NCBI RefSeq assembly: GCF_038396675.1
Contig: NC_088922.1
Location: forward strand, 20,730,001 to 20,794,000
Length of the DNA: 64,000 nucleotides
From: Hydra vulgaris
Lineage: Eukaryota > Cnidaria > Hydrozoa > Anthoathecata > Hydridae
Direction of reading: 5' to 3'
Positions 1,721 to 6,900 of this stretch are shown here, piece by piece. The notes under the pieces are model-generated. The model made no database searches, had not been told where the DNA came from, and saw only the letters and a list, made by a program, of their open reading frames with translations. A program made the position numbers and the translations under genes. Position 1 is the stretch's first letter, and each line of letters opens with the position of its first letter.

Positions 1721-3889
1721 AATACTTATTAAAACTTGGGATTTTATTATGCGCCTGCACTAGCTGCAAATATATAAATATCATTAATTTGATTAAATGT
1801 GTTAAGCTTTCATTATACAGTGCTTACCAATTTGCCTGTTAGCTTTTGTTTTTTAGTTGTTGGTAAACTTGATCTTGTAACATAAAGCAAAACCGATCAC
1901 AAATAAACTTGATTGAGTATTGTAATTAGTAGAATTTGAAGTAGTAAAATTGCTTTACTGGGTTCAACAAAGCTTTGTTTTTAACGAAATTAACACATTT
2001 TATTCATTTATTTTAAAAATTTTAGAAGAACTAAAATTTTTGTAAGATTTTGGGTAAGTTGTTAACAATACTCCTTCTTTTTATCTTTTCAAAAAAAATA
2101 GTTCCTATTACCAGTCATTTTTTTATAAGAAAATATAATGTTTTTGAATAGGGTAGGTTTCACAAAAAAAACTCCGTAAAATATGGCGAGCAATCACCAA
2201 CAAAAACTATCCAGAGTATGTAGAATATGTGGAAACCTTTTAGGAAAAGATAATTTAAAAACTGACAGTAACATAAATCGAATTTATAAAGCTTTTAGAA
2301 TAAATGTATCAGAAGATTCTCAGTGTAGTCATCCTGAGAAAATGTGCATGAAGTGTTATACTTCTCTAAGAAACATCGAAAATAGAGGCAGTAAAGTTTT
2401 CAAAGCTTCAAAAATTTGGCTAAAATGTCCAACAGTCGAATACAAATGTGTTTTTGGTATTTCCAGGTCGAAAACCTCTATCTAATGTTGGGCGACCAGG
2501 AAAGGTTAAAAAATGGACAAAATTTCATATAAAATCATTTCTTGATTGACTGCCTATACAAGAAGATAGAGATATTTTAACAGAACTAAACTATGAACTA
2601 AATCCACATATAGTTTTATGCCTTTTTAAGATTTGTGGGGAAGTTATGAATCAGCCTGTCATGCTAAAGAACTGTCAACACTCATTCTGTAGCTTGTGCA
2701 TTTTATCAAATGTTAAAGATAAATTAGAAAATGATTCAAATTGTCCATTATGTAAAACTAACATCACAATTAACAGCCTATCATATTCTGTCCATATATC
2801 TGAAATTATAAAACATTTATCTATTATATGCAAGATTTGTGACAAAAAAGTATTTATAAAAGACAGAAATTTTGAAAATCACGACTGCAGAAAAATATCA
2901 AATAACACCATTACGACCAATTAGTTAGTATAAACAGATTTTACCAAATCACTGACACAAGTGAAATCCCACGAAAATTCAATGAAGCTGTTTTACATAT
3001 CATTGACAAAAAGTTGAATCAGTTCAAAACATCTACAATAGAATTTTCATTAGGTAGGCCTAGGGTAAGAAATATGCTTTAACTTTATAGCAAGTTAAAT
3101 AGTGTTTACTCTTCTATTACGCTAGATATAATTGTAATTATTAGAATTGTAGTAGTATTTAAACTTTATTATATCATTATAATGCAGTCTATATTTTAAA
3201 CAAGAGTAAATCAGTTTGATTTAGTTTTTTTAATATTAAATATAACTTATAAAAAAATATATAAAATATTATTTTATTTTCTATTTGAAGTAATGTTTTG
3301 TTTGATTTACAGTCACTTTGTTTTGTTTCTGCTCCCAAAGCTTATAAAGATAGCGCAAACTGTAGTAATAGCTCTCTAAGTAAAAGACAGAAATATTTCC
3401 TGAGAAATAGTTCTCAGGACTCTAGAATATGTCAAACAGCTGCAATGTTAAAGTCATATGTTAATGATGAAGCAAATACAATTTTAAATAAAGCCAATAT
3501 TGGAAGAATGGATTTAAATGCAGAAGAAATGGTTGCTTTAAAAGCTGATATGGGTATTCCTTGGAATAAATTGAAAACCATGGCTAGGTAAATATAAATA
3601 TGGAACTTAAAATACTTTTTGTAATTTCGTTTTTTAATTTGAGAACTTGTAGTTCATTTTTACAATTGTTTATAATTGCAAAATTTATTGCTTGTATATT
3701 AATATTGTAGGTGGTTAAATTCGAAAAATATTAAAACTGCTTCAAACAACAAACAAAGAGTTGTTGCAAAGGAATGGGCTGGAAATGATTTAGTTATTTT
3801 AGATGGACCATTTACATTTCAAAATGAAAATAATAATCTATTTTTGAAATTAAACTAGCTCCTTGGGCATATATCAATGACCTACCATA

Positions 3890-3945
3890 AAATATATATT
3901 TAAACAACTTTATAATGTATTCTACACAATAGAGTGCTCATATAT
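3890..3945 (+). repeat. Fragment of Penelope-like element terminus
   Basis: The segment starting TATTTAAACAACTTTA and ending TATTCTACACAATAGAGTGCTCA matches 16106-16150 almost exactly. There the same text borders a Penelope-like copy. Here it lies in the intron of the RAG1-N-like gene, next to (TA)n. Confidence 0.75.
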
Positions 3946-4012
3946 AGCACTATATATGTATTCTACATATATAGGGCTATATATATACCTCATTTTTCCT
4001 AATTCCGAGGGT

Positions 4013-4068
4013 TATATATATATATATATATATATATATATATATATATATATATATATATATATATA
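4013..4068. repeat. (TA)n microsatellite
   Basis: Pure TA repeat inside an intron of the RAG1-N-like gene. Confidence 0.97.
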
Positions 4069-5536
4069 CAAATTTAAATGTTAATAGAATATGTCAAACA
4101 GCTGTAATGTTAAAGTCATATGTTAATGATGAAGCAAATAAAAATTTAAATAAAGCCAATATTGGAAGAATGGATTTAAATTACTTAAACATGGTGGGAT
4201 TATAAAGGATGAAATACATATAAAAATTGGTGGTGATCATGGAGGTGGTTCTTTTAAAATGAGTTACCAACTCAAAATCAAATAGTTTTGTGTTTAGTAC
4301 TTTTGAAGCAAAAGACTATTGTGTCAACCTGAAAGTTGGACTGTCTCGATATACACAGCAAGTTGATGAGATGCAAAAAATGGTTTGGAAGTAAGTTAAT
4401 ATTTCACAGCAGTCACGGTTAATATTTGTTCTGAACAATAAAATATAATTTTTCAGAACAATTCAAATTACTTTTTTTTTCTTTAGTTTTCACACATGTT
4501 TGGGTGGGTACTTTGTAATTAGTTTTAGGATGTTATTAATGTATCAAAGCTGTAAAATATTTATTCTCCACAAAGTCTTGGATAAAAAATCTTTTTTGTT
4601 TAGAAATCACCATTGTCATATTTTTATGTTTGGAGATTACGATTTTCTGTGCAGTGTATATAGAATCACAGGAGCTAGTGGTAAGTTTTTTTTATACTAT
4701 GAAATAAATAAATAATTATCCTAACAAATCTATATCTGCAAGTGAATAATTATTTTTTTAATCAGTTGTACAACACATTATTTATTCCTTTTTTTCTTCA
4801 TTTCACAGGTCGGCACTGCTGCCTCTGATATAACAAAGGAAGAGATCAAAATAACTCTTGAAAATCGAAAACATAATGTTTCCCATAGTACACTTTATTC
4901 TTTAAGAGATAACTTTGAGTCTTTTCAGAGTTATGGAGGAGTTTTAAAGAATGCGAAGCTTTTCAACGATGTTATTGATCAATCTTTGTTTAATATTCCT
5001 CTGGATCAAGTAAATTAGTTCTTTTTATTTAAATAATGCTGTTATACTATAAAATTATTACAATTGTTTTTATTAACTTTAACAGGTTGCAGTGCCTGCA
5101 TTACATATATCTACTTGAAATTTTTTATTATGTTAGAAGACAAGTGTCATTTAATTGATATAAAACTTGCTGGAGAACTTGCATTAAGTAATAAAACTAT
5201 TAATAAATCAGAATTTGACAAGTTTATTTCCATGCATGTCCAATCAAGTCTTTTGAATAGCGTTATTACAGATTGTCTTGAAGAAATTGCTCTTTTGCAA
5301 GACACAGTTGGAATACAAGTTTTGCGTGATCCAGAAAGAGCAGAAGATATTTTGAAAACATGTAAACCAAGAGTTCTTTATTATGAATTGAGAAAAAACG
5401 AAAAGGTATTGTTTTTCAGTAAAAAATATTAATCATTAAATTTACTATTAATCAAAATTTATAGATAAAACTTGCTTTAAAACTATAATAAAATTAAAAG
5501 ATTAAATATCTGTAAATTTTGTGTACCTAAATTAAT

Positions 5537-5630
5537 TATTATTAGTCAATAGAACTACAAAGATATTATTAGTCAATAGAACTACAAATACATTATTTAT
5601 ACATATTATTAGTCAATAGAACTACAAAGT
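5537..5630 (+). repeat. Tandem triplication covering a 3' splice site
   Basis: The phrase TATTAGTCAATAGAACTACAAA occurs three times. Each copy carries its own TTATTAG acceptor followed by the same exon start (S-I-E-L-Q). Only the last copy leads into the coding exon at 5613-5772. Confidence 0.8.
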
Positions 5631-5788
5631 TTACACAAATGTAACGAACTAGATAAAGTGTCAGGACCATGCATTCAAAAACTAGATGAAATATTGAAAG
5701 AAAATAAAGTTTAAAGGCAAGCCTTATCATAGGAAATGTTTTGTAGGAAACCATGTTCACAAAATTCTAAAGGTAGTTGTTTTAACAC

Positions 5789-6111
5789 TATATATATATA
5801 TATATATATATATATATATATATATATATATATATATATATATATATATATATATATATATATATATATATATATATATATCTATATGTATATATATATA
5901 TATATATGTATATGTATATTTATACATATATACATACATATATATATATATATATATATATATATATATATATAATATATATATATATATATATATACAT
6001 ATATATATATATATATATATATATATATATATATATATATATATATATATATATATATATATAGATATATATATATATATATATATATATATATGCATAT
6101 ATGTGTATATA
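5789..6111. repeat. (TA)n microsatellite, about 320 bp
   Basis: Long TA tract with GTAT/GATA interruptions in the intron between the FVGNHVHK exon and the next exon. Open frames across it encode only alternating Ile/Tyr. Confidence 0.97.
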
Positions 6112-6900
6112 AATTTTATTATATATATTCAAAAAATGTATTGCATAAAATATTATATTTAAAGCTCAATGTTTATAATGCCTTGATTTATGAATTAATT
6201 AATTTATTTGACTTTTTTTGATATTTTTTTATTTATAGTATCAACCATTGCTTGACTTAAAATGCAATTCGATTCCACAGCTAGTTGTAGAACTTGGATT
6301 TATAGATTACCGGTGTTCACTTACTATCTATCGATGTGAGCCAGAAATTTAAAAAGTTATTTTCATATTATTCTAGGTGTCATAATATTATGAATAGTTC
6401 ACACTATTTCAAAGATAATGATATTCAGGAGCTTGGTAAATATTTAACTAACTTTTTCGATTTTACTCTTGTAAATTTTTCTCTTGATTGTAAATTATAA
6501 TACCTAAACTACCCCTTGTTATTTTTACAGTATGATATTATTGAGTATTATTTTTCTTTCTGTATTGTATAATGGAAAATCTCGTCAATTTTTAGATTTA
6601 GCAATCAAAAAACTCATGGAATTTTATAGATTTACATGGCCAGATGCTTCTGTGACACCTAAAATGCATTTGCTTGAAAACCATGTATATCAGTTTATTG
6701 AAAAATGGAGATTAGGAATCGGTGTGTTTTGTGAACATGGTGGTGAAAGTTTATACGCCAAATTCAACAGTCTTAATAGATTATTCTGGCATATGAAGGG
6801 TTGTAGTCGGCTAGAAAGCACTGTTAAAGAACATTTTTTAAGAAATCACTCTAAAGCAAAAGATATAAAGCCAATTGTAAAAAAAAGAAAAATGAGTTAA

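Follow-up and report, generated by a model that had tools for sequence, protein, structure and literature searches.

The window, a 64,000-nucleotide stretch of the Hydra vulgaris genome (C3:20730001-20794000; 27% G+C; assembly of 911.5 Mb in 15 contigs), carries at positions 1710..7524 of the forward strand a 5815 bp element that is very probably a dead member of the Chapaev group of cut-and-paste DNA transposons. The element starts and stops with a perfect 10 bp inverted repeat (termini CACGGTGATT..AATCACCGTG, of the form CAC..GTG) at 1710..1719 on the forward strand and at 7515..7524 on the reverse strand, and is flanked on both sides by a 4 bp target-site duplication (TSD), CAGG, at 1706..1709 and 7525..7528. 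The left repeat is shared by the related copies L009-L011, L013, L015, L016, and L018-L022, and the right repeat also occurs in related copies.

The coding pieces, which extend from 2183 to 6900 (+), occupy several frames. Many of their edges resemble GT/AG junctions, and the pieces are collinear with the Hydra proteins P0001 and P0002 (tblastn). The N-terminal part comprises a RAG1 N-terminal-like (Chapa) zinc module with CxxC and HPxxxCxxC motifs (2183..2458; PF12560; aligned to residues 1-93 of P0001), a GRP box in a frame other than that ending at 2458 (2490..2498; from the sequence and alignment to relatives), a RING finger (2628..2753; PF00097, E = 1.7e-9), and a CCHC-type finger (2829..2888; from the sequence and alignment). 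The start of the pre-core region, with a donor-like site at its end (2930..3064; tblastn with P0001 and P0002), is followed by a pre-catalytic core exon with splice-like edges (3316..3588; tblastn). A core exon at 3715..3896 has its frame broken at about 3834, and a partial second copy of the 3316-3588 exon at 4085..4181, recognized by translation and by BLAST pieces in L009, L011, and other copies, appears as a non-coding internal duplication. The core exon at 4175..4391, which has a partial DUF1280 match below the cut-off and a frame broken at about 4270, carries the putative first catalytic Asp box (GGDHGGGSFK, 4229-4258), and the exon at 4602..4682 carries the putative second Asp box (GDYDFL, 4632-4649) together with an ITGASG motif (4665-4682). 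Further core exons lie at 4812..5009, which opens with a disrupted C(2)C motif, 5086..5408, with a PALH box (5095-5106), 5619..5772, with a GNHVHK box (5746-5763), and 6242..6434, which was identified by alignment to relatives. The C-terminal exon (6586..6897) contains an H(4)H box (MHLLENH, 6664-6684) and the putative glutamate box (CEHGGES, 6730-6750), is 77% identical to P0002, and has copies across the genome. The Asp-Asp-Glu (DDE) residues are assigned by motif (boxes at 4229, 4632, and 6730), and the three boxes align in the relatives. With frameshifts, in-frame stops, and adjacent pieces in different frames, the window copy is unable to make a working enzyme. The first-pass annotation had placed zinc modules and a GRP box in RAG1 order, followed by core motifs up to CEHGGES, within these coordinates, which agrees with the domain matches and alignments, and had described both halves as parts of one probable cnidarian transposon with defined ends; this holds, with the actual ends, 1710 and 7524, lying outside the interval 2183-6900 it had marked.

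The ends were examined in 15 stretches of 9.3-9.5 kb taken around related C-terminal exons. When the window sequence was shuffled, a 10 bp repeat with a 4 bp TSD of any composition arose in 33 out of 200 shuffles, which speaks against reading much into such a structure, and a pair holding at least 8 G+C arose in none of the 200; thus, the ends in the window are suggestive when taken by themselves, and the related copies decide. In BLAST comparisons, 11 of the 15 copies begin to match precisely at 1710, and seven stop matching precisely at 7524. Both ends lie within the stretch in 10 of 14 copies, the right end of L011 and L018-L022 carrying a single change, and nine of these 10 independent two-ended copies have identical 4 bp flanks (the exception is L020); L012, L014, L015, and L017 are omitted from the TSD count as one end falls outside the stretch. 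The fifteenth, L023 (G000:C3:20856900-20866400), has the same CAGG and was considered as a separate insertion, but it is an inverted duplicate of window positions 1-8795, about 120 kb away and 97.4% identical, and was left out of the count because it is a segmental duplication carrying the flanks of the window. When the flanks of the element were joined with a single CAGG, an unbroken match was obtained at all 40 of the best 40 of 359 candidate places, and the junction was read through at four of eight empty-site loci (CAGG in L033, L035, and L037; CATG in L036). The insertion site (window 1614-1709 and 7529-7640) falls within a different repeat. Taken together, the ends of the copies and the empty sites indicate that the target of the insertion belonged to a different repeat family and that 4 bp were duplicated.

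A genome search with the C-terminal exon gave at least 157 matches (the best 150 of 1491 candidates were scored). The copies L018-L022 occupy different sites and are 99.2-99.9% identical to each other along roughly 6.2-6.3 kb, so this group has moved recently. Named relatives were found in Hydra, Hydractinia, Branchiostoma, and the sponge Ephydatia, and in a tree of 25 core sequences the window copy clusters with P0001 and P0002 (Shimodaira-Hasegawa-like approximate likelihood ratio test, SH-aLRT, 99).

Assignment to Chapaev follows published hallmarks, namely a 3-4 bp TSD, CAC..GTG termini, and DDE, C(2)C, LH, and H(4)H motifs as described in PMC4079192. The window element has the 4 bp TSD, the CAC..GTG termini, the putative DDE residues, LH, and H(4)H, as well as a Chapa domain. 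Its C(2)C motif is disrupted, a point against the assignment, and is intact in P0001-P0006 among other relatives; C(2)C and H(3-4)H are described as common to Chapaev, Transib, and RAG1 (PMC12730594). Since the other hallmarks are present and the TSD is 4 bp rather than 5 bp, the element is a Chapaev. Kapitonov and Koonin (2015; PMC4411706) describe the Chapa domain as part of the RAG1 N-terminus, report a RAG1-N-like Chapa domain followed by a RING in two Chapaev subgroups, and include Hydra magnipapillata among the species in the legend of their tree. No difference of kind was found between such Chapaevs and the window element, which has the same ends, TSD length, DDE core, LH and H(4)H motifs, and domain order. 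Accordingly, the combination of Chapa, RING, and core within one element, which had been put forward as new, is already published for Chapaevs. What is added here is a further family, its ends and empty sites, a whole-core fold match, and young Hydra copies; a literature search that did not cover most subscription journals found no title on a structural comparison of Chapaev with RAG1.

The similarity of the N-terminal part to RAG1 is significant, as the first-pass annotation had expected. The piece 2183-2482 matches the Pfam model RAG1_imp_bd (PF12560) with E = 1.3e-8 (35.2 bits; cut-off 23.3) and, as a single sequence, matches the RAG1 N-terminal domain in the PDB (E = 3.4e-5). A profile of 13 family rows retrieves the same domain with E = 3e-14, the best non-RAG1 chain being at 0.015, and the alignment of these rows has eight invariant columns, including C, R, HP, two Cs, W, and C. 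Identification of the Chapa module thus relies on models of the RAG1 N-terminus (PF12560 and the RAG1 N-terminal domain), not on a dedicated Chapa model. A single open frame of 322 codons encodes Chapa, GRP, RING, and finger in the young copy L021, and in the relative P0050 (1029 aa) residues 4-258 align unbroken and in the same order to RAG1 residues 102-362 (E = 1e-4). A nine-row RING profile matches RAG1 (1rmd) across both the RING and the adjoining finger (profile positions 4-100, E = 4e-10); TRAF6 and RNF125 also span the finger, more weakly. Several results weigh against this reading. PF12560 is uneven among 10 relatives, five of which match at E ≤ 0.1 and one of which is over the cut-off, and among six further Chapaev proteins, of which four match and three pass, while the Chapa exon of L021 reaches 22.0 bits against the cut-off of 23.3. 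As a single sequence, the window RING retrieves no RAG1 row at E ≤ 0.01 and is nearest to the RINGs of BRCA1 and TRIM proteins; BRCA1 outscores RAG1 on the RING alone with the nine-row profile (positions 4-79, 8.6e-13), and in P0050 the RINGs of COP1 and RBBP6 score above RAG1. Judged by these comparisons, homology of the RING to RAG1 is not exclusive.

For the catalytic core, the claim of a RAG1-core-like DDE transposase stands by predicted fold and fails by sequence profile. No match to the RAG1-core model PF12940 was found in 10 window pieces or 10 relatives, the core profiles retrieved no RAG1 core from the PDB, with HzTransib absent at E ≤ 10, and hhalign against four Hydra Transib/RAG1-like open reading frames (ORFs) aligned the E-box region alone, with a probability of 40%. 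On the other hand, the predicted core of P0013 matches the RAG1 fold over 451 residues (Foldseek) and also matches BbRAGL and HzTransib. The model is of this relative and not of the product of the window copy, its confidence is low before residue 380, and the superpositions are loose (TM-score about 0.53-0.68 when normalized to the RAG1 target and 0.35-0.40 to the model; root-mean-square deviation 7.5-16.6), all of which tempers the comparison. For most of the mouse entries the matched range begins at around RAG1 residue 460, leaving the nonamer-binding domain unmatched. The resemblance of the predicted core to RAG1 is therefore at the level of fold and not of sequence profile, and because the core is invisible to RAG1 sequence profiles, the line-up of motifs alone is insufficient as proof.

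The known architecture of RAG1, an N-terminal zinc domain, a RING with a finger, and an RNase H core, is present in order, and two histories could account for it. Kapitonov and Koonin (2015; PMC4411706) proposed that a common ancestor of Chapaev, Transib, and RAG already carried Chapa, RING, and core in fused form. Since the RING-bearing Chapaevs keep the complete RAG1 plan, it can tentatively be suggested that the RAG1 N-terminus was inherited together with the core from this ancestor and was lost in Transib. The other history, in which RAG1-N/RING modules joined a Chapaev core independently of RAG1 as mobile modules, appears rather unlikely, although several observations accord with it. The presence of the RING varies, the 13 RING-labelled rows requiring four changes on the 25-row core tree, and the RING itself resembles BRCA1 at least as much as RAG1, while the COP1 and RBBP6 RINGs outscore RAG1 in P0050. 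Against independent joining, the four changes are probably an overcount because the unlabelled P0012 and P0017 are shorter models placed beside RING rows; moreover, the Chapa module is present in members both with and without a RING, the N-terminal part of P0050 aligns to RAG1 in one piece, and the predicted core is itself of RAG1 fold. Two reviews (PMC8355894 and PMC13337447) instead derive RAG1 from a Transib that became fused to N-RAG-TP, a transposon of Aplysia reported there to consist entirely of RAG1-N-like sequence. The window element and N-RAG-TP, compared by description alone, share RAG1 N-terminal-like sequence, and N-RAG-TP may itself be a Chapaev.

A position within the cnidarian RAG-like (ProtoRAG/TransibSU) or Transib transposons, as a direct relative of the RAG1 locus, is very improbable. 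Recombination signal sequences and Transib ends begin with CAC, as do the termini described here, and the predicted core fold of P0013 fits RAG1, BbRAGL, and HzTransib alike. In addition, RAG1L-RAG2L pairs are reported for three cnidarians, and amphioxus RAG1L is described with N-terminal zinc motifs and a ring domain (PMC7204232). However, Transib and TransibSU have a TSD of 5 bp (PMC4411706), in contrast to the 4 bp of the nine independent copies, and the canonical Transib transposase is described there as a core with no other domain. The RAG1-core profile, which excludes the core studied here, finds at least 24 places in the genome (among the best 68 of 130 candidates), none of them in the window element, and the Hydra Transib L025 matches HzTransib at E = 1e-98, unlike the window core, to which no sequence profile links Transib. 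In the young copy L021, 12 ORFs reach 70 aa or more; five of these lie outside the transposase exons and have no Pfam match over the cut-off, and no RAG2-like ORF was seen among them. Compared with vertebrate RAG1, the window sequence is a transposon, its core is not recognizable by RAG1-core profiles, and for the Hydra element neither a nonamer-binding domain nor a RAG2 was seen. TSD length and profiles thus largely refute membership in RAGL/ProtoRAG or Transib, and the RAG1-core-like transposase of the first-pass annotation is that of a Chapaev. True Transib copies are present elsewhere in the genome, at L025:1381-3027 (-) and in L029 and L030, which are 91-93% identical to L025. A separate 736-codon frame (L028:1677-3887, -; G000:C7:15154000-15160000) aligns with positions 210-612 of the RAG1 core profile (E = 2e-8), is only 26% identical to L025, and is a RAG1-core-like gene or element.

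Two further explanations can be set aside. A chance juxtaposition of a RING/zinc element and a DDE element might be suspected from the broken frames of the window copy and its repeat-rich surroundings, but it has practically nothing left to it, as the copies refute it: both parts occur in the same order in 13 of the 15 copies, L023 included (in L012 and L014 the later exons alone are visible), and single annotated proteins (P0001, P0005, P0013, and P0020) hold RING and core together. Domestication of a transposon as a host gene, for which the Hydra gene models of close relatives could be cited, is rejected with near certainty on the terminal repeats, TSD, and empty sites, together with the many genomic matches of the C-terminal exon and the broken state of the window copy.

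Elsewhere in the window, a 118-nt inverted repeat (7787-7904 and 8356-8473; 90% complementary, 451 nt apart) is perhaps a small terminal-inverted-repeat element. Open frames resembling fragments of reverse-transcriptase elements of the long interspersed nuclear element (LINE) type were recognized by eye at 26265-28787, 38490-40941, 48880-50206, and 56048-57079, and several open frames of 120-252 codons lie at 29175-32020 (+).

In the less damaged relatives of the window copy, one spliced gene would give a single transposase whose domains are ordered as in RAG1: the Chapa zinc module and GRP box are followed by the RING with its adjoining finger, likened to the zinc dimerization domain of RAG1, and by the DDE RNase H core of predicted RAG1 fold. 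By analogy with RAG1 and Transib, a dimer of the core would pair two CAC..GTG ends and cut next to CAC, and the freed element would be joined to its target with a 4 bp stagger. The RING part may aid dimerization of the enzyme and possibly act as a ubiquitin ligase, and the N-terminal zinc module may modulate or regulate the transposase.

The presence of the RAG1 parts in order, together with a core of predicted RAG1 fold, supports the 2015 proposal that these parts were together before RAG. The young, near-identical copies in Hydra, a laboratory animal, offer a way to test what the N-terminal and RING parts do in a transposase for which no RAG2 was seen. If the RAG1 N-terminus was indeed inherited with the core, a fusion of Transib with N-RAG-TP would be unnecessary, N-RAG-TP being a Chapaev, and Hydra would be a living example of the full RAG1 plan serving as a transposase without RAG2.

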